From: Armatimonadota bacterium
GTDB lineage: Bacteria; Sysuimicrobiota; Sysuimicrobiia; Sysuimicrobiales; Sysuimicrobiaceae
Reading direction: 5' to 3'
Length of the DNA stretch: 46,951 nt
Assembly: GCA_031460175.1 (NCBI GenBank)
Contig: JAVKGW010000012.1
Location: 1 to 46,951, forward strand
The position numbers and the translations under genes are program-made. The notes beneath the pieces were generated by a model that was given only the letters and a program-made list of their open reading frames with translations, was not told the DNA's origin and made no database searches. The stretch's first letter is position 1; each line of letters opens with the position of its first letter. Below are positions 29,302 to 40,833 of this stretch, in pieces.

Positions 29302-31635
29302 TCACCTTCCCTCCGGAGAGCCCACGGAGGCCGGAACCCGGCCCTCCAGAGGAGCCTGCCGGAGGATCCGCCACACCTTCTCCGCCCTCAGGGGCATGTC
29401 CAGATGTCGCACCCCGAGCGGAGCGAGGGCGTCCACCACCGCGTTCACGAAGGCCGGTGTCCCCCCGATGGTCCCCGACTCCCCGACGCCCTTCGCCCCC
29501 AGGGGATTCGTGGGCGAAGGGGTAACGGTGTGGTACAGCTCAAGCGGAGGGACGTGCGTGGCCCGGGGGATGGAGTAGTCCGCCAGGCTTGAGACGAGGG
29601 GTTGCCCGTCCTGGCCGTACGCCACCTCTTCCAGGAGGGCCTGGCCGAGGGCCTGCACGATCCCTCCCTGGATCTGACCGGCCACCAGCAGGGGGTTGAC
29701 CATCACGCCCACGTCGTCCACCGCTACGTACCGGAGGACGGACACCTCCCCCGTCTCCCGATCCACCTCCACCAGGCAGAGGTGGGCTCCGAAGGGGAAG
29801 GTGTTGGAGGGGATGGCGAAGGTGGCAGACTCCTCCAGTCCGGGTTCCATCCCTTTCGGGAGGCGCATGGGCTGATACGCGGCGGCCGCGACCTCCGCCA
29901 CCGATAAGGATCGATCCGGCACGCCCCGCACGGATACCCGCCCTTCCCGCAGCTCCAGATCCGCCACGGGGGCCTCCAGGAGATGCGCGGCGATTCGGAG
30001 GAGCTTGCGCCGCACCTTCTCCGCGGCCCGCAGGATGGCGGAGCCTCCCACCACCAGGGTGCGGCTCCCCCCCGTCCCCCCGCCCATGGGGATGGCCAAG
30101 GTGTCCCCGTGGACCACCCGCACCTTGTAAGGATCGATCCCCAGCTTCTCGGCCGCGATCTGGGCGAACCCCGTCGCGTCCCCCTGACCATGGGGAGAAG
30201 TCCCCGTGAACACCACCGCGGTCCCGTCCGCGTTCATCCGGACCTTCGCCCACTCCCACCCGAAGGCGCAGATCTCCACGTACGTGGAGAGGCCGATCCC
30301 CACCAGCCGCCCTTCCTTTCGGGCCTGCTCCTGTTCCTTCCGCAGCTTCGGATAGTCCGCCTTCTCGAGGAGGACCCGGAGGGCCCGGTGGTAGTCACCG
30401 CTGTCGTACCGCAATCCCGTGGGCGTGCGGTACGGGAACGCCCCCCTGGGGAGGAGGTTGCGGCGCCGCACCTCCGCGGGATCCAGCCCGAATTCCCGGG
30501 CCACGAGATCCATCCCCCGCTCCAGATAGTAGGTGGCCTCCGGACGGCCTGCGCCCCGGTACGCACCGGAAGGGGTTTTGTTCGTGTACACCCCCACCAC
30601 CTCGATGTCCACCGCGGGGATGCGGTAGGGACCCGTGAGCATCCGGGCCGTCATGCCCGCGATGACCAGGGTGGTGGTGACCGCGTAGGCTCCGAGATCT
30701 CCCACAATGCGGGCCCGTAGCCCGATCACCCGGGCCCGCCCGTCGCACGCCAGCTCCAGGTCGCACAGTTGGCTCCGACCGTGGGCGCTCGCCACCATGC
30801 TCTCGCTGCGGCGCTCCACCCACTTCACCGGACGCCCCCGCCGCTGCGCGAGGTACGCGACCAGGACGTCTTCCGGGAAGGCGTTGAGCTTGAGGCCGAA
30901 GCCGCCGCCCACGTCGGGGGTGATGACCCGGACCTGGTTCGCATCGAGCTTCAAGGCCCGCGCCAGGGTGTCCCGCAGGCTGTGAGGGAGCTGCGTGGAG
31001 GCCCACACGGTGAGCTGCTCCCGAACCCCGTCCCACTCCGCGAGTACCCCCCGGGGTTCCATGGGGGCTGCCGCGAGCCGCTGGTTCCACATCCGCTGGC
31101 GGATCACGCGCGCGGCACTCCGGAACGCCTCCTCCACCTCTCCCTGTCGGATGTTCAGCCGAAGGCCCACGTTGTTCCCCAGGTGCTCGTGGACCAGCCG
31201 GCGTCCCTCGAGGGCCTCCAGGGGATCCGCCACCGCCTCGAGGGGCTCGTAGGTGACCCGCACCATCGCGGCCCCGTCCTCCGCGGCCGCCGGGCTCTCC
31301 GCGAGCACCGCGGCCACGGGCTGTCCCACGTACCGCACCACCTCCCGGGCCAGCACGGGATGCGGTACGGGTTGGGTCCCGGGAGGCCCCATCACCGGGA
31401 CATCCTGGATCTCGAGATCCTGGGCCAGGAGGACCTGTACGACCCCGGGCTGGCGGAGGGCCTCGGAAGGGTCCACCTCCACGATCCGCGCGTGCGCGTG
31501 GGGGCTGCGGACCAGGGCCACGTGGAGGACCCCGCTGGGGTTGAGGTCGTCGAGGTAGGCTCCCTTTCCCTGCAGAAGCTTGGGATCCTCAATGCGGCGT
31601 ACCTGGCGCCCCAGCCACGTCCATTCTCCCGTCAT
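29302..31635 (-). CDS. xanthine dehydrogenase/CoxL-family molybdopterin-binding subunit (large subunit only)
   Basis: A 777-residue molybdenum hydroxylase catalytic subunit. RRIEDPKLLQGKGAYLDD begins the chain, DVGGGFGLK is a molybdopterin contact, and GVGESG near the end carries the catalytic glutamate. The active-site loop reads AYRGAGRPE, so it is not the Cys-containing loop of true aerobic CO dehydrogenase. Such enzymes hydroxylate aromatic heterocycles or aldehydes, normally with FAD (CoxM) and 2Fe-2S (CoxS) subunits; neither gene is adjacent. ATG at 31635 overlaps the stop of the preceding gene (ATGA), tying it to the UGSC partner protein. Confidence 0.92.
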   Translation of the reverse strand: MTGEWTWLGRQVRRIEDPKLLQGKGAYLDDLNPSGVLHVALVRSPHAHARIVEVDPSEALRQPGVVQVLLAQDLEIQDVPVMGPPGTQPVPHPVLAREVVRYVGQPVAAVLAESPAAAEDGAAMVRVTYEPLEAVADPLEALEGRRLVHEHLGNNVGLRLNIRQGEVEEAFRSAARVIRQRMWNQRLAAAPMEPRGVLAEWDGVREQLTVWASTQLPHSLRDTLARALKLDANQVRVITPDVGGGFGLKLNAFPEDVLVAYLAQRRGRPVKWVERRSESMVASAHGRSQLCDLELACDGRARVIGLRARIVGDLGAYAVTTTLVIAGMTARMLTGPYRIPAVDIEVVGVYTNKTPSGAYRGAGRPEATYYLERGMDLVAREFGLDPAEVRRRNLLPRGAFPYRTPTGLRYDSGDYHRALRVLLEKADYPKLRKEQEQARKEGRLVGIGLSTYVEICAFGWEWAKVRMNADGTAVVFTGTSPHGQGDATGFAQIAAEKLGIDPYKVRVVHGDTLAIPMGGGTGGSRTLVVGGSAILRAAEKVRRKLLRIAAHLLEAPVADLELREGRVSVRGVPDRSLSVAEVAAAAYQPMRLPKGMEPGLEESATFAIPSNTFPFGAHLCLVEVDRETGEVSVLRYVAVDDVGVMVNPLLVAGQIQGGIVQALGQALLEEVAYGQDGQPLVSSLADYSIPRATHVPPLELYHTVTPSPTNPLGAKGVGESGTIGGTPAFVNAVVDALAPLGVRHLDMPLRAEKVWRILRQAPLEGRVPASVGSPEGR

Positions 31636-32738
31636 GCTCCCGTCTCCCTCATGGTCTCCCTGGCAGTATTCGTCCCCGGGACGGCAATCCCTGCTTCCCG
31701 CACCCGGCGGCTCTGCCAGGTGCTGAGCCGCCGGGGCATGACCCCGATCAGCACGGAAAAGGCACCGGCGGCACCGCCCGCGCTGAGGACGTGCACATCC
31801 GAGGGATCCCGGATCAGGTGTACCCAGCGATCGTCCGGATCTCCTTCCTCCACCCACCGCCGGGGCTCCCCCAACACGTACCCGCCCTTGCGGTTGTCCC
31901 CGATGGTCCGGAAATCCCCGGCCCGGCGCCGGGCGTGCTCCCGCAGGAATCTCCGGATCTCCGCCTTCGTCCAGCCCTCCCGGGCGAGGAGGGCCCGGTG
32001 CTCGGGCCCGATGAGAAGCAGGTACTCCGTGTAGCCCACGGGGCCGAAGGCGGGGACGGGGGACATGGCGTCCGCGATGGCCCGCAGGAGCCGTTCTCCG
32101 TTCCCGTCCGGGTCGAAGTATCCCACGGTGCTGGGACCCCGGCAGGCCATCACGGTGACCACGCTGTCCTGGGCCGCGTACCCCTGATCCACGTGGAAGG
32201 GGGCCCAGGGGCTGCCTTCTTCGTCCTCCCCGATGCAGTACGTGTACTGCCCGGGGTGCCCGAAGGTGGACCGGTCCGTCTCCAGGGAACCGCCCAAGTT
32301 GATGAGCAGGAGTCGCAGCACCCGTCCGATGGTGGCATTGGCCCGATTCCCGGGACCGAACAGCCGCTCCCGGCAGTTGATCCCGATCCACTTCCGGACT
32401 GGGCCGTTCACGATGACGAGCAGGCCGGGGCCCGCGGTGGTGCAGGCCACCGCCTGCAGGTTGAACGCGGGGTCCAGGATCGCCTCCACCGCCGCCAGCA
32501 CCACGGGCATGTACTCCGGCCGGCATCCCGCCATGACCGCGTTTGCGGCCACGAGCTCCACGGTAGCGGGCGTGTTCCGGGGCGGCACGATTCCGAGGAC
32601 CTCGTCCGCCCGTCGCCCTGAGGCCTCCACCATCCGGTCCACGAGCGACCGCAGGGGCGGAAGGACGGGCAGCCCGTCCGTGCATCCCTGATCCATCAAG
32701 TACTCCACCAGTTCCACGAACTCCGGCGCCCCCCGCAT
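31632..32738 (-). CDS. UGSC-associated conserved protein of unknown function (copy 1)
   Basis: A 368-residue soluble protein without signal peptide or membrane segment. I do not recognise the fold. It is homologous to the 347-residue protein at 38952: shared blocks include TDGLPVLPP, AANAVMAGCRPEYMPVVLAA, VIVNGPVR, GNRANATIGRVLRL, YTYCIGEDEEGSPW and IGPEHRALLAREGW. The Cys in MAGCRPEY is conserved in both copies, as is a Cys in the YxxC of YTYCI/YSFCI. It starts 9 nt after the first selenoprotein gene and overlaps the CoxL-type gene by 4 nt. Because both copies sit directly downstream of a UGSC selenoprotein, the two products probably act together. Confidence 0.85.
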   Translation of the reverse strand: MRGAPEFVELVEYLMDQGCTDGLPVLPPLRSLVDRMVEASGRRADEVLGIVPPRNTPATVELVAANAVMAGCRPEYMPVVLAAVEAILDPAFNLQAVACTTAGPGLLVIVNGPVRKWIGINCRERLFGPGNRANATIGRVLRLLLINLGGSLETDRSTFGHPGQYTYCIGEDEEGSPWAPFHVDQGYAAQDSVVTVMACRGPSTVGYFDPDGNGERLLRAIADAMSPVPAFGPVGYTEYLLLIGPEHRALLAREGWTKAEIRRFLREHARRRAGDFRTIGDNRKGGYVLGEPRRWVEEGDPDDRWVHLIRDPSDVHVLSAGGAAGAFSVLIGVMPRRLSTWQSRRVREAGIAVPGTNTARETMRETGA

Positions 32739-32747
32739 CTCCCCTCC

Positions 32748-33338
32748 TTACCCGCCAGGCACCGCCCGGATCTGATCCATGGCCCGAAGCAGGCGCGCCA
32801 CCACGGGCTCTACGAGCCGTGTGGCCCGCTCCCTGACCTCCTGCGGGGTCAGATTCGCGAGAGGATGGGGCATCACCACGAACCACGGCTCCTGCGCCTT
32901 CCGGGTGGCCTGGATGGCCCGCACCGTGGGCACGAAGGGCTCCGTGATCACGGCCACCGCCGGGATTCCCCGCTCAACCAAGGTGATGGCGTCGTGCACA
33001 CTGCACGCGCTGCAGGACCCTCAGTCCCCAACACCCGTGAGGACCAAGTCCACCCCCTCCGTCACCCGCCGCAGCTCCTCCTCCGTGGCGGGAACGGAGG
33101 GGAATCCCTTCACCACGAAGGGTCCCACGGAGATTCCGTACCGGTCCGCGAGCTGTCCAGCGAGCTCCTTCAGCAGGCGTTCCGAGCCTGGCTTGGAGTT
33201 GTCCAGCATTCCACACCGGAGCCCCCGCAGCCGCTCCGGTTCCAGCCGCGTCTGGGGAAGGGGAGCGGCCGTCTGATCTCCCTTCCCCCACAGCCTCCCT
33301 CCCGTGGGGTCCACGATCTCCCATCGCCCGTTCTGCAT
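32748..33338 (-). CDS. UGSC-family selenoprotein (copy 1), in-frame TGA = Sec106
   Basis: A 196-residue selenoprotein if the TGA at 33023-33021 is read as selenocysteine; TAA at 32748 is the stop. N-terminal half: GLRCGMLDNSKPGSERLL, a Rossmann-like start. Around the TGA: VLTGVGD-Sec-GSCSACSVHD, giving a Sec-x-x-C redox motif and a further Cys (UxxCxxC). The C-terminal half continues without a gap (VERGIPAVAVITEPF, VVMPHPLANLTPQEVRERA). ATG 33338 has GGGAGG 8 nt upstream; GTG 33347 is too close. The same layout recurs in the second copy at 40027. A SECIS-like hairpin follows the TGA. The UGSC name is a family of Sec/Cys proteins whose reaction I do not know. Genes calling here would wrongly give two short ORFs. 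Confidence 0.88.
32989..33010 (-). promoter_or_regulatory. bacterial SECIS-like hairpin (copy 1)
   Basis: In the mRNA, 13 nt from the first base of the UGA, GCG-CGTGCA-GTG-TGCACG-A-CGC folds into a 9-bp stem with one bulged A and a 3-nt GUG loop. The loop begins 19 nt after the UGA and has G first, within the known bacterial SECIS rules (loop 16-37 nt downstream, G in the first two loop positions). SelB would bind it. Stem pairs covary with copy 2. Confidence 0.8.
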
Positions 33339-33351
33339 GCCGATCACCTCC

Positions 33352-34875
33352 CTACCGTCGGATCCAGGCCTCCCCGGGGGTCCACCACGGCCAAGTGACC
33401 CACTTCATGTGGTTGGTTCCCTGGACCTGAGGACGTTTCGCGTACGCCCGCGGCGAGCGCCACACCGTCACGTGCAAGGACTCCTGCAACAGGATCCGAT
33501 GCAGCTGCTGCGTCTTGTACCCTTCCGGCCGCAGGGTGGAGACGGATTCCGCAAACACCTGATTCAGGGCCGCGGGCCGCGCCATGCTCGCCCACACCTC
33601 CGGCGGGTTCACGAAGTAGAAGCCCACGAAGCTGTTGTAGTTCGCGAAGAACCCAAGGAAGTGGACCAGGATCCCCCGCCAGCCCCGGGTGGAGTACTCC
33701 CGGTATCGGGGGGCTTCGGGGAACTCCAGCTCCGCGTGGATCCCGACCTCCCGCAGGTACCGCTGGATGGCCACCACATGGTCCCGGGGGATGAAGGGCG
33801 CGGGGATGAGGCGGGTGCTGAACCCGTTCGGGTATCCCGCCTGCGCCAGGAGCTCCCGGGCCCGAGCCGGGTTGTACGTGGGACCCCGATAGTCCCGCAG
33901 GTACGCGGACTGCTCCGGGAACGCCAGCTGGTTGGTGGGCTGCAGGAGCCCAAATCCCAACCCCCGAACGATGGCCTCCCGGTCGATGGCGTAGCTTAAG
34001 GCCTCCCGGACCCGGCGGTCGGCAAACGGCGAATCCGCGTTCGCGCTGTCCGGAATCAGGGTCAGGATCGCATTGTCCGCCGCCATGAGTTCAAACCCTG
34101 CTCCCCGCAGCTCCGCGATCAGCGCCAGGTCCTGCAGCCCGGCCACGTCGATCTGCCCCGCCAGCAGGGCCGCCTTCAGGGTCTGGGGATCCCGGATGAA
34201 CCGGATCTCCACGCCGTCCAGATACGGCTTCCCCCGGTCCCAGTACTGACCGAACCGCCGATACCGCACGTACGCGTCCCGCTCGTATCGCTCCAGCTGG
34301 AACGGGCCTGTCCCCACGGGATGCCACCGGGCCCGCTCCACCCCCAACCGCTCCAGGGCCGCGGGTGAGATGACCGTGGCCGGGGTTCCCGCCAGGGTCA
34401 CCAGCACCCGGTTGTCCCACCCCTTGAGGCGGATCCGCACCGTGTTCCGGTCCACCGCCTCTACCGCCTCGAAGTAGGGAATGAGGCCCCGTTCCATCTG
34501 CTTCTGCAGGTTGAACTGCACCGCCTGCGCGGTGAGGTCGGTCCCGTCGTGGAACTTCACCCCCCGCCGCAGGTGTAAGGTGATGATCCGCCGGTCCTGG
34601 CTGATCTCCCATCGCTCCGCCAGCTTCGGCATCACCCGACCCGCCCGGTCCATCCACAACAAAGGCTCCAGGGCCGGCACGGCCGCACAGATGGAGACGC
34701 CCACGATCTCCCACGGGATGCCGAAGGGACTTCCAGGCGCTTCATCCACCACCCGCAGGACCCCGTCCCGAACGATGGAGGGCCCTGCGGTCGCGCCTCC
34801 CACCGAGGCCAGGAGAAGGAGGAGTACGATCCCGATGGTGAGTCGTCGTCCCCACGTCGTGCCGCCGGTCCCCAT
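33352..34875 (-). CDS. ABC transporter substrate-binding protein, family 5 (copy 2)
   Basis: A 507-residue DppA-type binding protein, signal peptide at about 1-32 (LTIGIVLLLLLASVGG core, no lipobox). It contains APGSPFGIPWEIVGVS, AERWEISQDRRIITLHLRRG, GTGPFQLERY and YNPARARELLAQAGYPNGF. It is a close paralogue of the neighbour at 34907, with stretches of near-identical DNA. ATG at 34875 has GGAGGTG 6 nt upstream. It ends 13 nt before the first UGSC selenoprotein gene. Confidence 0.9.
   Translation of the reverse strand: MGTGGTTWGRRLTIGIVLLLLLASVGGATAGPSIVRDGVLRVVDEAPGSPFGIPWEIVGVSICAAVPALEPLLWMDRAGRVMPKLAERWEISQDRRIITLHLRRGVKFHDGTDLTAQAVQFNLQKQMERGLIPYFEAVEAVDRNTVRIRLKGWDNRVLVTLAGTPATVISPAALERLGVERARWHPVGTGPFQLERYERDAYVRYRRFGQYWDRGKPYLDGVEIRFIRDPQTLKAALLAGQIDVAGLQDLALIAELRGAGFELMAADNAILTLIPDSANADSPFADRRVREALSYAIDREAIVRGLGFGLLQPTNQLAFPEQSAYLRDYRGPTYNPARARELLAQAGYPNGFSTRLIPAPFIPRDHVVAIQRYLREVGIHAELEFPEAPRYREYSTRGWRGILVHFLGFFANYNSFVGFYFVNPPEVWASMARPAALNQVFAESVSTLRPEGYKTQQLHRILLQESLHVTVWRSPRAYAKRPQVQGTNHMKWVTWPWWTPGEAWIRR
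33820..33895. repeat. 76-nt direct repeat, copy A (within binding protein gene)
   Basis: Identical over 76 nt to 35375-35450 in the neighbouring paralogous gene; it encodes the NPFGYPA/AQAGYPNGF-to-RGPTYNPARA region. A second near-identical block (68 nt, one mismatch) is at 34693-34760 and 36245-36312. Confidence 0.85.
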
Positions 34876-34906
34876 GCTTCTCACCTCCCCTTCTGAGGGT
34901 TGTGGT

Positions 34907-36424
34907 TCACCGATCGAGCCACGCGTCCTCCGGAGCCCAGAAGGGCCAAGTGGCCCATCGCAGGTGCTTGGTGTCCCGCACGTACTTCTGCATCACGTAG
35001 ATCCTCCCGTAGCGCATGAGAGGGATCACCGTCAGGTCGCTGAGCAGCAAGCGGTGGAGGGCCTGGACCTTGTGCCGCTCCTCCCGCAGGGTCCGCACGG
35101 AGTCCCGGAACAGGGCCTCCAGCTGAGCCGGACGTCTCATGCTCGCATACCCTTCGGGCGCCTGGGTGTAGTAGAAGGCCACATGGGAGTTGAAGTTCGG
35201 GAAGTACCCGAACACGTGGATGAGCATTCCCCGCCAGCCCCGTCGCTGATACTCCGTGTAGCGGCCGATCTCGGGGAGCTCCAGCTGGGCGCGGATCCCC
35301 ACCGCGTTCAGGTACTGCTGGAGGGCGACCGCGATGTTGCGGTCCAGGTACGGGGCCGGGATCAGGGTGGTCTCGAACCCGTTCGGGTATCCCGCCTGCG
35401 CCAGGAGCTCCCGGGCCCGAGCCGGGTTGTACGTGGGACCCCGATAGTCCTGGAGGTACGCCCTGGATTCCGGAACCGTGAGCTGCGTCCACCCCTGGGA
35501 GAGGCCGAAGAGGGTGGCCTGCGCCAACGCCTCGCGGTCCACGGCGTACCCGATGGCCTCCCGCACCCGCCGGTCCGCCAAGGGGGAATCGGGGTTCGCG
35601 CTGTCCGGGACCAGGACCACCACCCCGCCGAAGAAGGATTCCGCCGGATAACCCTCTCGGATCAGCTCCGCAGCGACCGGATAAGGGCCGAGCCCTGCCA
35701 CGTCCACCTGCCCCGCTAGGAACGCGGCCCGCAGCGTCTGAGGATCGCGGATGAACCGCATCTCCACCCCGTCCAGGTAGGGCTTGCCCGGCTGCCAGTA
35801 GTTCGCAAACCTTCGGTAGGTCACCGCGGCGTCCCGCTGGTAGCGGACGAACCGGAAGGGTCCTGTCCCGACCGGCTCCCACCGGGCCCGGTCCACCCCC
35901 TGCCGCTCCAGGAAGGAGGGAGACGCCATGAGGGCGGAAGTGCCCATGAGGTTTAACCAGACCCGGTTGTCCCACTCCTGGAGGCGGATCCGCACCCGGC
36001 GCTCATCCGCTGCTTCCACGGACCGGAAGGGGACCCGGCGGGCCTCGATCTGACGCTGGAGGTTGTAGACCACCGCTTCAGCGTTGAGGGGCGTCCCATC
36101 GTGGAAGCGGATCCCCCGCCGCAGGGTGAGGGTGATGGACCGGCGGTCCGGGGCCACCTCCCACCGCTCCGCGAGCCTCGGGAGAATCCGACCCTGCCGA
36201 TCCACCCAGAGAAGGCTCTCGAAGGCGGGGATGGCCGCACAGACGGAGACGCCCACGATCTCCCACGGGATGCCGAAGGGACTTCCAGGAGCTTCATCCA
36301 CCACCCGCAGGATCCCGCCCCGCTTGGGAATGGGGGCCGCCTCCGCGAAGGGCAGGTCCGCCTGCGCCCTCAATCCCAGGCCGATTCCCACCACCGTCAC
36401 GAGCACCCACGCCATGCCCCGCAT
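34907..36424 (-). CDS. ABC transporter substrate-binding protein, family 5 (copy 1)
   Basis: A 505-residue DppA-type binding protein. Signal peptide at about 1-25, no lipobox; RGGILRVVDEAPGSPFGIP starts the mature region. AERWEVAPDRRSITLTLRRG, GTGPFRFVRY and ARELLAQAGYPNGF are typical. I chose ATG at 36424 because AGGAGGTG lies 8 nt upstream; the much longer frame reading into the SDR gene is antiparallel noise. It ends 31 nt before copy 2 of this family. The ligand may be a peptide, opine or small organic acid; not decidable from sequence. Confidence 0.9.
   Translation of the reverse strand: MRGMAWVLVTVVGIGLGLRAQADLPFAEAAPIPKRGGILRVVDEAPGSPFGIPWEIVGVSVCAAIPAFESLLWVDRQGRILPRLAERWEVAPDRRSITLTLRRGIRFHDGTPLNAEAVVYNLQRQIEARRVPFRSVEAADERRVRIRLQEWDNRVWLNLMGTSALMASPSFLERQGVDRARWEPVGTGPFRFVRYQRDAAVTYRRFANYWQPGKPYLDGVEMRFIRDPQTLRAAFLAGQVDVAGLGPYPVAAELIREGYPAESFFGGVVVLVPDSANPDSPLADRRVREAIGYAVDREALAQATLFGLSQGWTQLTVPESRAYLQDYRGPTYNPARARELLAQAGYPNGFETTLIPAPYLDRNIAVALQQYLNAVGIRAQLELPEIGRYTEYQRRGWRGMLIHVFGYFPNFNSHVAFYYTQAPEGYASMRRPAQLEALFRDSVRTLREERHKVQALHRLLLSDLTVIPLMRYGRIYVMQKYVRDTKHLRWATWPFWAPEDAWLDR
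35375..35450. repeat. 76-nt direct repeat, copy B (within binding protein gene)
   Basis: Partner of 33820-33895, identical at every base I compared, although the surrounding gene sequences differ at many positions. This pattern suggests gene conversion or recent duplication with uneven divergence. Confidence 0.85.
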
Positions 36425-36456
36425 CCGCCCTTCACCTCCTGCTCGATCCATGCTGC

Positions 36457-37275
36457 TCATGCTCCGACGTCCTTCCCGATGGCCTGGGCCATGGCCCGGT
36501 ACTGGGCGTAGTCCCCCACTGGACAGACGGCGACTCCGGGGATCACGATGACGCTGGCGGTGAGGAGGCCTGCTTCCCGGCTCGCGAGGAAAGCCACCAG
36601 GGCCCCGATGTCCTCGGGGAGGGCAATCCGCCGGGACGCCACCCGGGCCTGGACCTCCTCCTCCCGCATCTGGGCCCGCATGCGACCCGTGAGGATCCCG
36701 GCGGGGAGGACCGCGTTCACCGTGATCCCGTACGGGTAGAACTCCGCCGCCAGCTGCCGGGTGAGGCCCAGGAGGCCCCGCTTGGAGGAAGTGTAACAGG
36801 CCCCTCCGTTCAGGCTCGCCCGGAGGGCCGCCAGGGAGGAGAGATTGATGATGCGGCCGAATCCCTGACGCACCATGTGGGGGAGGGCGGCCCGGCTCAT
36901 GTAGAAGGGACCCGACAGGTTCACCCGGAGGTAGCTCCACCACTCCTCGTCCGGCATCCGCTCCACCGCGGGTGAACGTCCCAGGCGCGCCGCGTTGTTC
37001 ACCAGGATGTCCAGCCTCCCGCAGCGGTCCACCACGGATTCCACCATCCGCCGGGCCTGGAGAGGGTCCGAGACATCCCCCACGACCGGCCACGCCTCTC
37101 CGCCTCCGCTGCGGATCTGATCCACCGTGGCCTGTGCGTACTCCTCCTGGAGGTCGTTCACGGCCACCCGCGCGCCTTCCTCCGCGACAGTCCGCGCGAT
37201 GCCCGCCCCGCCTCCGCCCATGGCTCCCCCACCAGCGCCCGTGACCAGGGCCACCATCCCGACGAGCCGACCCAT
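36457..37275 (-). CDS. short-chain dehydrogenase/reductase (SDR), paralogue 3
   Basis: A 272-residue SDR oxidoreductase. VALVTGAG at the N-terminus, DVSDP, VNNAA, catalytic Ser in INLSSLAALRAS and YxxxK as YTSSK. The glycine-rich nucleotide loop is longer than usual (TGAGGGAMGGGGAGIAR instead of TGxxxGIG), a trait shared with the two SDRs upstream. ATG 37275 fits GGAG with 7-nt spacing. It follows the next SDR by 10 nt. Substrate unknown. Confidence 0.88.
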   Translation of the reverse strand: MGRLVGMVALVTGAGGGAMGGGGAGIARTVAEEGARVAVNDLQEEYAQATVDQIRSGGGEAWPVVGDVSDPLQARRMVESVVDRCGRLDILVNNAARLGRSPAVERMPDEEWWSYLRVNLSGPFYMSRAALPHMVRQGFGRIINLSSLAALRASLNGGACYTSSKRGLLGLTRQLAAEFYPYGITVNAVLPAGILTGRMRAQMREEEVQARVASRRIALPEDIGALVAFLASREAGLLTASVIVIPGVAVCPVGDYAQYRAMAQAIGKDVGA

Positions 37276-37285
37276 GGGCATGCTC

Positions 37286-38101
37286 CTACACGAACGCGTT
37301 CTCCCGGCGCCCCCCACCGGGCACCACGGATACCGCCCCGTCGATGGGGATGGCCGCCCCCGTGATGTACCCCGCCTCCCGGCTCGCCAGGAACACCACC
37401 AGGGCCGCCACCTCCTCCGGGGTGCCGGCCCGCAGGGCGGGAACGGTGGCCGCTGCCGCGTTCCGCCGCTCCTCCGCCCAGTCCTCCACCAGCCTCGGCG
37501 TGAGGATGAACCCCGGCAGGATGGCGTTCACCGTGATGCCGTGCTGAGCCACCTCGATGGCCAGGTGCCGGGTGAGTCCGTACAGCGCCTCCTTCGTGGC
37601 CACGTACGGCACGCCGTGCAGCAGGCTCGTGCGGATGGCGGAGATGTTCGAGACGTTGATGATCCGGCCGAACTTCCGGGGCCGCATGTGCCGCACCGCG
37701 GCACGGCTCAGGTAAAACGGGGCATGCACGTTCACCGCGAGGCTCGTCTCCCACTCCTCGTCCGACACCTCATCTGCCCGTCGGCCGCTTGCGTGGTACT
37801 CTGCCTTGTTCACGAGAACATCCAGCTGCCCGAACCGCTCGATCACACGTTCCACCAGCGCATCCGCCTGCCGGACATCCGACACGTCCGCGGGGAATGC
37901 CTCCGCCTCCAGCCCCGCATCCCGCATCTCCCGGACCGTGGCCTCCGCCCGCTCCGCGGTCTTGTCGTTCACCGCCACCCGGGCTCCCGCCTGGGCCAGG
38001 GATCGGGCGATCACCGGTCCGACTCCCCCCTTCGAGCCGCCCCCGGCACCCGTGACCAGGGCCACCATCCCGCTGAGGTCACACAGCCGCGTGGTCTGCA
38101 T
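37286..38101 (-). CDS. short-chain dehydrogenase/reductase (SDR), paralogue 2
   Basis: A 271-residue SDR with MVALVTGAG, the long loop TGAGGGSKGGVGPVIAR, DVSDV, catalytic Ser in VSNISAIRTS and YVATK. The normally conserved NNAG motif reads NKAE (VLVNKAEYH), unlike its neighbours (NNAA), so the structural Asn pair that shapes the active site is altered. ATG at 38101 follows GGAGGG. Located between the other two SDRs in the same unit. Confidence 0.87.
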   Translation of the reverse strand: MQTTRLCDLSGMVALVTGAGGGSKGGVGPVIARSLAQAGARVAVNDKTAERAEATVREMRDAGLEAEAFPADVSDVRQADALVERVIERFGQLDVLVNKAEYHASGRRADEVSDEEWETSLAVNVHAPFYLSRAAVRHMRPRKFGRIINVSNISAIRTSLLHGVPYVATKEALYGLTRHLAIEVAQHGITVNAILPGFILTPRLVEDWAEERRNAAAATVPALRAGTPEEVAALVVFLASREAGYITGAAIPIDGAVSVVPGGGRRENAFV

Positions 38102-38122
38102 CTTTCCCTCCTGCCTCCTCGT

Positions 38123-38935
38123 CTAGCCCGCGTCCTTTCCGCTCCGCTGTTTATAGGCCTCGAAGTCCCCCAGTGCGCTTCCGAGCCCCCGATCCAGCGG
38201 GATGGCCGCTCCAGAGATGAAGGTCACGTCGCGCCGGGACAAAAAGGCCACGAGCTTCCCGATCTCCTCCTCTGGATCCAGGGGGCCCAATCTCCCTTCC
38301 GCCTGCAACCATTCCGGTCTCATCCGCAGGATCCGGGGATTCCGGATGCCGGTGGGCATCAGGGCATTCACCGTGATCCCGAATTGGGCAACCTCGAAGG
38401 CCATCTGCCGGGTCAGGCCCAAAAGCCCCGTCTTCGCGGTGGTGTACGTGGAGCCGCTCACGAATCCCGTGCGGACCGCGGCGAGGGAAGCGATGTTTAC
38501 GATGCGACCAAACCCCTGGGGGATCATGTACCGCAGGGCGGCCCGGCTCATGTAGAAGGGGCCGCTCAGGTCCACCGCCACCTGGCGATGCCAGATCTCA
38601 TCCGGAAGCCGTTCCACCGCGGGGATGAGGCCACCGATGGCTGCATTGTTGACCAGAATGTCGATGCGGCCGAAGTGGCGGACCACCGCGTCCACCATGC
38701 GGTTCGCATCCGCGGGATCCGAGACGTCCCCCACGATGCCCCATGCCTCTCCGCCTCGGGAACGGATCTGGTCCACGGTGGCCTCCGTGAACTCCTCCGT
38801 GAGGTCGTTGACGGCCACTTTGGCGCCCTGGTGGGCCAGGTACCGGGAGATGCCAGCCCCCCCTCCGCCGTCCTCTCCCCGGCCAGCTCCCGTCACCAGG
38901 GCCACCATCCCGACCAGCCACCGTTCCTCTTCCAT
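38123..38935 (-). CDS. short-chain dehydrogenase/reductase (SDR), paralogue 1
   Basis: A 270-residue SDR. N-terminal MVALVTGAGRGEDGGGGAGIS again shows the expanded glycine-rich loop (residues 15-29). DVSDP, VNNAA, catalytic Ser in VNIASLAAVRTG and YTTAK complete the active site. ATG at 38935 follows GGAGGGAGGGG. It starts 16 nt after the second UGSC partner gene. Confidence 0.88.
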   Translation of the reverse strand: MEEERWLVGMVALVTGAGRGEDGGGGAGISRYLAHQGAKVAVNDLTEEFTEATVDQIRSRGGEAWGIVGDVSDPADANRMVDAVVRHFGRIDILVNNAAIGGLIPAVERLPDEIWHRQVAVDLSGPFYMSRAALRYMIPQGFGRIVNIASLAAVRTGFVSGSTYTTAKTGLLGLTRQMAFEVAQFGITVNALMPTGIRNPRILRMRPEWLQAEGRLGPLDPEEEIGKLVAFLSRRDVTFISGAAIPLDRGLGSALGDFEAYKQRSGKDAG

Positions 38936-38951
38936 CCCCTCCCTCCAGGGT

Positions 38952-39995
38952 TCAGCTTCGCCTCCGGATCGGGATCGTGACGCTCTGCCAGGCAAAGGTG
39001 GGGCAGACGGTGGATACCCCCGCGTTCCGGGCTCCCGCAATCACCAGGGTGATGGCTTCCGGGGTGGGCGCGAACCGCACGAACGCCTCGTCCGGCAGCT
39101 GGGGATCCAGGCCTCCCTCCTTCGCGAGCCGCCGCAACTCCCCCGCCCGACGCCCGAAGTGCTCCCACAAAAACGCCCGCACCTGATGCTTGCTCCACCC
39201 CGCCTGGGCGATCATCTGCGCGTGCTCCGGCCCCATCACCACGATGGATCCGTGGCCCCGGGGCCAGGGGAAGTACGCCCCCGCGTAGGACATGGAGTCC
39301 GCGATGTTGAGGAGGATGTGCTCGGGCTGCTTGGAGTCCCGCTGCTCCACGGGCATGGTTCCTCGGGCCAGGACCACGGTCACCGTGCTCTCCTCCCTGC
39401 CGAACCCCCGCTCCACGTGCAGCGGCTCCCAGGGGCTCTCCTCCTCGTTCTCCGCGATGCAGAAACTGTACTTGGCCGGCGTCCCCTGGGTGCTCTGATC
39501 GAAGACGTGGGGTCGGATCCCCAGAGCGTTCAGGATCACCAAGCGAATCGCACGCCCCACGGTGGCGTTGGCCCGGTCCCCGGGACTGAAGACGTTGTCC
39601 GCACCGTTGAATCCCAGCTCCTGCCGAACCGGCCCGTTGACCACCACCAGCACCGCCTGCCCGCTGGTGCTCTGCAGCAAGCCCCGGCTCCCCGCGGTCC
39701 GCTCCAAACCCTCCAGGGCCGCCAAGACCACGGGGAAGTACTCCGGCCGGCATCCCGCCATGACCGCGTTTGCCGCGGCCAACCGCACCGTGCACTTCCG
39801 GCCCAGGTGCGGCTGAGCGATGAGCACCTCCTCCGGATCCCGATCCACCTGGGCCAGGAATTCCTCCACGAACTCCTCCGCCGGGGGAACCACGGGTAAG
39901 CCGTCCGTCCAGCCCCGCTCGTAGCAGTACTCGATCCCCGCGCGGGCTTCCCGAACCGCCTCCCGGGTGGGCTCCACTTCCTGCCAGGTCCTCAT
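38952..39995 (-). CDS. UGSC-associated conserved protein of unknown function (copy 2)
   Basis: A 347-residue protein homologous along its length to the protein at 31632. Key blocks: GWTDGLPVVPP, AANAVMAGCRPEYFPVVLAA, VVVNGPVR, GDRANATVGRAIRL, YSFCIAENEEESPW, GREESTVTVVLARG and MGPEHAQMIAQAGW. The C-terminus differs: this copy ends ...CPTFAWQSVTIPIRRRS, while copy 1 has a longer tail. No signal peptide, no transmembrane segment and no family that I recognise. ATG at 39995 follows GGAGGAGGGG; it begins 31 nt after the second selenoprotein gene. Confidence 0.85.
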   Translation of the reverse strand: MRTWQEVEPTREAVREARAGIEYCYERGWTDGLPVVPPAEEFVEEFLAQVDRDPEEVLIAQPHLGRKCTVRLAAANAVMAGCRPEYFPVVLAALEGLERTAGSRGLLQSTSGQAVLVVVNGPVRQELGFNGADNVFSPGDRANATVGRAIRLVILNALGIRPHVFDQSTQGTPAKYSFCIAENEEESPWEPLHVERGFGREESTVTVVLARGTMPVEQRDSKQPEHILLNIADSMSYAGAYFPWPRGHGSIVVMGPEHAQMIAQAGWSKHQVRAFLWEHFGRRAGELRRLAKEGGLDPQLPDEAFVRFAPTPEAITLVIAGARNAGVSTVCPTFAWQSVTIPIRRRS

Positions 39996-40026
39996 GGTCC
40001 CCTCCTCCCCCTCCTGGCCAGTTCCC

Positions 40027-40560
40027 TCACGGGGCCTGGATTCCCAGCAGCCGCGCCACCTCCGGCAGCGCCTGCTCCGCCCGCGCCCGCACCTCCTCCG
40101 GGCCGAGGCTGCTGAGCGGATGCGGGATCACCGCGTAGGGGTAGCCCGGCATCCCCCGGGTCTGGGCCATGGCGTCCGCCGTCCGCAGGAACGCCTCCGT
40201 GATCACCACCGCTGCGGGCACTCCCCGCTCCTCGAACAGAATGCCGTCGGCCACACTGGCCGCGCTGCAGGATCCTCAGTCCCCTACTCCCGCGATCACC
40301 ACGTCGCACCGCGCCAATAGGTCCTCCACCAGTTCCGGCGGGGCGGGAAGGGATGCGTTGGGCTTGCGGCGCAGATGCACCTCCTGCGCCCCGAATCGCG
40401 CCTGCAGCAGCTCCCCCAGGGCCCGCAGGAAGGCGTCCGCGTTCCGCTTCCCGTTGTCCACAAGGCCCACCCGGGCTCCCTGCAACGTCCGCCGCGTCCG
40501 CGGGGCCAGGGGCTTCGTGGCCTGCGTGACCTCTCCCGTGGGATCCACGAGCACCGGCAT
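40027..40560 (-). CDS. UGSC-family selenoprotein (copy 2), in-frame TGA = Sec95
   Basis: A 177-residue selenoprotein if the TGA at 40278-40276 is decoded as selenocysteine; the true stop is another TGA at 40027. The chain reads GARVGLVDNGKRNADAFL, then VVIAGVGD-Sec-GSCSAASVAD, then EERGVPAAVVITEAF and YAVIPHPLSSLGPEEVRARAE. It matches copy 1 on both sides of the TGA with no frame change. It has the Sec-x-x-C pair but lacks the third Cys of copy 1 (Ala instead). ATG at 40560 has GGAGGG 7 nt upstream. It lies 3 nt after the NifU-like gene. Confidence 0.88.
40244..40265 (-). promoter_or_regulatory. bacterial SECIS-like hairpin (copy 2)
   Basis: Same position relative to UGA as in copy 1: GCG-CGGCCA-GTG-TGGCCG-A-CG. 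The inner 6-bp stem, GUG loop and bulged A are kept. Two inner pairs differ from copy 1 in a compensatory way (U-A to G-C and G-C to C-G), so base pairing is preserved although the codons change (Cys to Ala, His to Ala). The outermost pair of copy 1 is lost. Confidence 0.8.
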
Positions 40561-40563
40561 GGC

Positions 40564-40833
40564 TCATCCCTCCTCCGGAATGCGTTTTTCCAACCGCACG
40601 CCCCGCAGGGCGGGGTACACGGGCGCGATGCACTGTTGGAGCATGGCCTGCAGCACCTCATCCCCCACCAGGCATTCCAGGCAGGCCTCCGGGGTCGCCT
40701 CCAGGACCAGGTCCACCCATCCGTCTTCCGTCACCTGCTGGACCCGGAGCTCGAACCCGTCCGCGGCAAGCCCCACCCGAACCTCGTCGAGCGCCCGGTC
40801 AATGCGCTCCAGGACCGTCTGCGCTTCTCCCAT
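40564..40833 (-). CDS. small NifU C-terminal-like protein
   Basis: An 89-residue protein resembling the NifU/Nfu C-terminal domain: VRVGLAADGFELRVQQVTE and GWVDLVLEATPEACLECL with a CxxC pair (CLEC), which in Nfu proteins binds a [4Fe-4S] cluster between subunits. The spacing around the CxxC is not the usual ACxxCPSS, so the assignment is moderate. ATG at 40833 starts 4 nt after the amidohydrolase and it ends 3 nt before the second selenoprotein gene, implying tightly coupled expression. Confidence 0.6.
   Translation of the reverse strand: MGEAQTVLERIDRALDEVRVGLAADGFELRVQQVTEDGWVDLVLEATPEACLECLVGDEVLQAMLQQCIAPVYPALRGVRLEKRIPEEG

Follow-up and report, generated by a model that had tools for sequence, protein, structure and literature searches.

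The window, a stretch of 46,951 nucleotides from a genome of the Armatimonadota (GTDB Sysuimicrobiota), carries two homologous gene pairs on its minus strand. In each of them a gene for a selenoprotein of the UGSC family is followed by a gene for a protein of about 350 residues, here called the partner, as the first-pass annotation had described. Pair 1 consists of UGSC1 (P0001, 196 aa; 32748..33338) and partner 1 (P0003, 368 aa; 31632..32738), separated by 9 nt (32747-32739), and pair 2 of UGSC2 (P0002, 177 aa; 40027..40560) and partner 2 (P0004, 347 aa; 38952..39995), separated by 31 nt (40026-39996). Both UGSC proteins are members of the family PF24696/NF041046, as they carry the UGSC motif and score 155 bits (E 2.5e-45) and 215 bits, respectively, against a PF24696 cut-off of 25; UGSC2 also scores 167.5 bits with NF041046 (cut-off 125). 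The family is known but functionally uncharacterised. It was named after its motif only, and neither its models nor the literature found on it give a function or a partner.

The genes around the two pairs lie on the same strand. Directly upstream of UGSC1 is a probable family-5 solute-binding protein, as judged from its sequence (33352..34884), which groups with the other two solute-binding proteins of the window, and partner 1 is followed by a xanthine dehydrogenase-type molybdopterin subunit (29302..31635), an order kept in the sister genome. Upstream of UGSC2, in the same gene run, are an amidohydrolase (PF04909; 40838..41710) and a small NifU-C-like protein with a CxxC motif, here CLEC (40564..40833), which ends 3 nt before UGSC2. 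Partner 2 is followed by three consecutive short-chain dehydrogenases (36457-38935), the first at 38123..38935.

Each UGSC gene contains one internal TGA, and this in-frame UGA is a genuine selenocysteine (Sec) codon. In UGSC1 it encodes Sec106 (33021..33023, minus strand) within the motif GVGDUGSCSACSVHD, and actinobacterial copies have TGC or TGT at the matching position. In UGSC2, read-through of the one TGA places Sec95 at 40276..40278 (minus strand); a second TGA is the terminator of this gene (40029-40027, minus strand). Downstream of each Sec codon lies a bacterial SECIS-type hairpin, CGUGCA-GUG-UGCACG in UGSC1 (32993..33007, minus strand) and CGGCCA-GUG-UGGCCG in UGSC2 (40248..40262, minus strand). 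A 6-bp hairpin with a loop starting in GU, at a fixed distance from the UGA, was present in 61/61 distinct UGA-type copies, and was fully paired, with all six pairs, in only 1/18 copies with cysteine (Cys) in place of Sec, although part of this contrast reflects ancestry, because the Cys-type copies come mostly from Actinomycetota. Compensatory changes support the pairing: T-A, G-C and A-T alternate at one position, and G-C and C-G at the next two. In thermodynamic folding, the two window copies taken singly did no better than shuffled sequences, and the SECIS assignment therefore rests on comparative pairing.

The window's genome has five UGSC genes, all of the UGA type, and the machinery to decode them, with selA (570 bits) and selB (353 bits) beside tRNA-Sec on contig 3. 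Near selA and selB, a 607-aa protein (L144:1162-2982, G000 contig 3) matches HypE, ThiL and SelD with its C-terminal part, below all cut-offs. SelB exceeded its cut-off in each of the six UGA-type genomes checked, and failed to reach it in both Cys-type genomes. A GU-loop hairpin, coding conservation across the UGA, Cys homologues and the Sec machinery, the features by which bacterial selenoproteins are recognised, were all observed here. Across 55 aligned UGSC proteins, Sec/Cys95 and Cys98 are invariant. The AlphaFold2 model of UGSC (pLDDT 93.6) shows an open beta/alpha sheet and places Sec95 where a helix begins, and its matches in the PDB are generic Rossmann-type folds, including flavodoxin-like ones, at TM about 0.5. 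No thioredoxin-fold entry is among the 50 matches listed, and the predicted sheet together with the Rossmann-type matches would rule out a thioredoxin fold.

UGSC is homologous to the Sec domain of glycine reductase subunit B (GrdB). Nineteen of the 55 UGSC proteins match the GrdB model TIGR01917 at E 0.01 or better (best 5.4e-7), in a region spanning the C-terminal Sec domain, and UGSC1 weakly matches GrdF, GrdB and PrdB. A profile comparison of UGSC with GrdB proteins (hhalign) gave 87% (P 3.8e-6) with the Sec sites aligned, and a Chloroflexota GrdB reads ATUGSCNRCGATISKEIERLGIPV at this site. Like GrdB, GrdF and GrdH (TIGR01917, TIGR01918, NF040794, NF040795) and PrdB, UGSC has the Sec domain that is C-terminal in these proteins, with a UxxC motif. 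Unlike them, it is only 150-200 aa long and has no counterpart of their N-terminal part of about 330 residues. Full-length cut-offs are not reached (16.7 vs 602 bits for TIGR01917, 12.5 vs 300 for PrdB), and UGSC is therefore not filed as GrdB. Two further differences from the GrdB system are that the partner is not GrdE and that UGSC copies occur in aerobes, some with Cys instead of Sec. As a side observation, one Chloroflexota genome (G219) has six copies of GrdE (PF09338), including those at L124, L129, L132 and L134.

The two partners of the window are about 40% identical, can be aligned over their length, and share the blocks TDGLPVxPP, NAVMAGCRPEY and G(D/N)RANAT. Their alignment also confirms the two conserved cysteines that had been noted from the sequence. 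In the numbering of P0004, Cys82 is found in 76/77 homologues, the position being Ala in one partner, and Cys179 in 70/77. Asp31, Cys82, Asn120-Gly121-Pro122, Asn143, Arg148, Asn156 and Glu182 are near-invariant, and this conservation suggests an active or binding site. Searches of Pfam, NCBIfam and PDB sequences with both window partners returned chance-level matches only, with no NCBIfam model matched by either, and so did searches of Pfam and the PDB with 77 homologues. The AlphaFold2 model of partner 2 (pLDDT 95.2) has no convincing global relative among PDB folds; the best match, class I fumarase (TM 0.26), and the next best, cyclic amide hydrolases, were rejected as folds for the partner (rmsd 12-17 A). 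The partner was also rejected as GrdE (PF09338), with no sequence or profile similarity and an hhalign probability of 0.2%, and as the missing N-terminal part of GrdB, with no similarity in the profile comparison. Neither sequence nor fold searches thus linked it to a known unrelated enzyme, and the earlier view that it belongs to no described family is supported. At two loci (L032:1631-3793 and L023), two partner genes stand in tandem.

The linkage of UGSC and partner across genomes is near certain. In a partner-seeded genome-wide scan, UGSC was present at 76/80 loci, before or after the partner, so that partner homologues occurring mostly alone, the outcome that would have spoken against a functional pair, were not what we found. 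Two of the four loci without UGSC are cut by contig ends (L055, L086) and two are not (L023, L078). At L023 there is no UGSC within the 13 kb examined and its genome has six partner genes and two UGSC genes; a partner can therefore occur without an adjacent UGSC. The UGSC-seeded count is the unbiased direction and the stronger evidence. Among 251 Chloroflexota genomes, UGSC was found in 26 and the partner in 27, with both in 26 (Fisher 1.7e-34) and a single genome with the partner alone. At least 64 of the 70 UGSC places in these genomes have a same-strand partner no more than 1 kb away (UGSC leads in 22, the partner in 22, and 20 are one open frame), while the remaining 6 belong to two genomes in each of which at most 8 partner candidates were scored. 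In the phylum of the window (43 genomes), UGSC occurs in 6, the partner in 7 and both in 6, the partner-only match sitting at a contig start. On plasmids with UGSC, the partner is adjacent in 20/20. This linkage supports the functional coupling that had been proposed for the two proteins.

The two proteins have also diverged together. In trees of 113 adjacent pairs, the distances of UGSC and partner correlate with r = 0.76, a value reached in 0/2000 permutations, none of which exceeded 0.19, and promoted by shared ancestry as well. Pair 1 forms a deep separate lineage, with a tree distance of about 1.7-2.0 to all others except its orthologue in the sister genus, and is kept in the sister genome together with its xanthine dehydrogenase-type neighbour. 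The near paralogues of pair 2 lie in the window's genome as well, on contig 11. The window pairs are therefore old paralogues. Of the duplication suggested by the first-pass annotation, the two homologous pairs stand, and the tree distances rule out a recent event.

In several genomes the two proteins are fused. One open frame covers both domains, with a single TGA within the UGSC domain, at L047, L120, L122 and L136, and the window's own genome carries such fusions on two contigs, 11 and 16 (the latter ending within the partner), as does the sister genome in two places (L147). A fusion of UGSC to an unnamed conserved domain, "Unknown_1", with a conserved Cys was already mentioned in a 2008 ocean survey (PMC2398784, Fig. 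S1A). This domain is possibly the partner described here; the NifU-like domain is the other candidate. Two plasmid fusions, from Vibrio europaeus (L101:7218-8903, 561 residues) and Sporomusa termitida (L102:7215-8939, 574 residues), have GDMGTS in place of GDUGSC and adjoin aconitase X and DUF126. They form a branch that lacks both Sec and Cys at this position, where M and S stand instead. Some members therefore cannot use selenol or thiol chemistry, and these fusions are the strongest argument against reading the system as purely redox.

The pairs are found in small clusters of degradation genes. Their neighbours encode short-chain, zinc alcohol and aldehyde dehydrogenases, Amidohydro_2 proteins, CoA-transferases, luciferase-type oxidoreductases, LysR or IclR regulators and solute-binding proteins. 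One genome of 4.6 Mb (G048, the source of L075) has 22 UGSC and 23 partner copies, which is consistent with a set of enzymes that differ in substrate. Thioredoxin reductase and/or thioredoxin adjoins the pair at L040, L099, L100 and L137, two of which have both, and L140 and L142 hold weaker reductase relatives. The NifU-C-like protein of the window matches PF01106 below the cut-off (E 0.003, 18 bits vs 27), and a NifU-like domain fused in an Arthrobacter copy scores 27.2 bits. In 19 loci such relatives stand next to UGSC or the partner, or are joined to one of them in a fusion (fused at L066, L077, L087 and L099), and this CxxC protein is likely an accessory third component. In the set L145:10960-11946, L135, L138, L141 and L143, proteins annotated as DUF6282 stand beside several haloarchaeal pairs, and a look-alike, by sequence only, stands beside the contig-11 pair.

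Based on what was computed, namely the Sec decoding, the pairing and fusions of the two genes, their co-occurrence, the homology of UGSC to GrdB and the catabolic surroundings, our tentative reading, in which we place a little less than even confidence, is that UGSC and partner are two subunits of one thiol-dependent catabolic enzyme that cleaves C-X bonds and exists as many substrate-specific paralogues. UGSC would be a stand-alone version of the Sec domain of glycine/sarcosine reductase subunit B, with its selenol as nucleophile. In the physical complex and the division of labour that we infer, the partner would bind and position a small organic substrate, and the Sec of UGSC, or the Cys that stands in its place in Actinomycetota, would attack a substrate carbon and expel the leaving group. 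The neighbouring Cys of the UxxC motif would then resolve the Se-bound intermediate to a selenenyl-sulfide. The direction would be reductive, and the electron donor restoring the selenol may be thioredoxin or, in some clusters, the small NifU-like CxxC protein. The net result would be a dithiol-driven C-X cleavage whose products pass to the adjoining dehydrogenases, amidohydrolases and CoA-transferases.

Known systems offer a partial precedent for this chemistry. Glycine reductase is anaerobic, which counts against the C-X cleavage model, since many UGSC hosts are aerobes; so does the fact that thioredoxin genes stand beside only a few copies. Glycine reductase works through a carboxymethylated selenocysteine intermediate, with thioredoxin as the reductant (PMC10298544). 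Schiff-base activation cannot be assumed for the pair, because the partner resembles neither GrdE nor GrdB. A GrdB-like monofluoroacetate operon of Synergistota has been connected with the breaking of the C-F bond of fluoroacetate (PMC10838667). There, too, a GrdB-type protein is implicated in C-X cleavage, and the substrate is not an amino acid, which makes the operon a precedent. It differs from the UGSC pair in serving anaerobic dehalorespiration and in its antiporter and radical SAM parts. The selenium-dependent redox system envisaged in the first-pass annotation is not fully supported: selenium is not obligatory, as the actinobacterial Cys copies and the GDMGTS fusions indicate, and the redox part follows from the GrdB homology and the thioredoxin genes beside a handful of copies.

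Other explanations account for parts of the data. That the gene order is due to chance and was kept by common descent without a shared function is hardly credible: related genomes do share neighbourhoods, but both gene orders occur, fusions arose in separate lineages, and the pairing extends over bacteria and haloarchaea, plasmids and chromosomes, so that the data already contradict it. A non-redox lyase, hydratase or isomerase, with the active site in the partner, would leave UGSC a structural or substrate-binding role, its Sec/Cys acting in acid-base or nucleophilic catalysis without net reduction. Such an enzyme would explain why the V. europaeus and S. termitida fusions keep both domains despite GDMGTS, next to aconitase X and DUF126, and would agree with class I fumarase as the partner's top, very weak fold match. 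We nevertheless consider it unlikely, as a TM of 0.26 is no fold match, thioredoxin genes stand beside several pairs, and the retained Sec and the invariance of Sec/Cys95 and Cys98 in 55 UGSC proteins suggest a redox or a strong nucleophilic demand.

Somewhat less probable still is a general thiol-disulfide or peroxide-reducing (antioxidant) system. The UxxC motif and the thioredoxin reductase neighbours would suit it, as would the Trx-like fold that the 2008 survey (PMC2398784) assumed for UGSC, but the model predicts the open, flavodoxin-like or Rossmann-type sheet instead of thioredoxin, and the varied catabolic clusters, often with transporters, and the up to 23 paralogues per genome suit substrate-specific enzymes better. 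The pair could also be a glycine/proline reductase couple in the strict sense, with UGSC as PrdB/GrdB and the partner as a far-diverged pyruvoyl proprotein (GrdE/PrdA) cleaved at Cys82. The UGSC-GrdB homology and the presence of Cys82 in nearly all partners agree with this, yet the partner has no profile similarity to GrdE and one partner has Ala at that position, and we regard such a couple as improbable.

With the C-X cleaving two-subunit enzyme as the preferred reading, the ties of UGSC to one partner, the fusions and the kinship with GrdB allow this so far orphan selenoprotein to be put to the test as an enzyme of two subunits. The pair looks like two halves of one enzyme by which many soil, marine and hot-spring microbes degrade small molecules. 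A bolder extension, to which we give somewhat less credence than to the two-subunit enzyme itself, is that it adds to the GrdB/PrdB-type selenoenzymes a third branch, mostly of aerobes, in which a UGSC selenol subunit and an unrelated substrate-binding subunit, in many substrate-specific paralogues, would carry out reductive C-X cleavage in bacteria and haloarchaea. UGSC ranks among the most frequent selenoprotein families of ocean and freshwater metagenomes (255 sequences in PMC2398784). Selenium- or thiol-driven C-X cleavage is known so far mainly from anaerobic amino-acid fermenters. If the pair carries it out in aerobes, this would widen the chemistry and bear on how SAR202-type bacteria break down recalcitrant organic matter.
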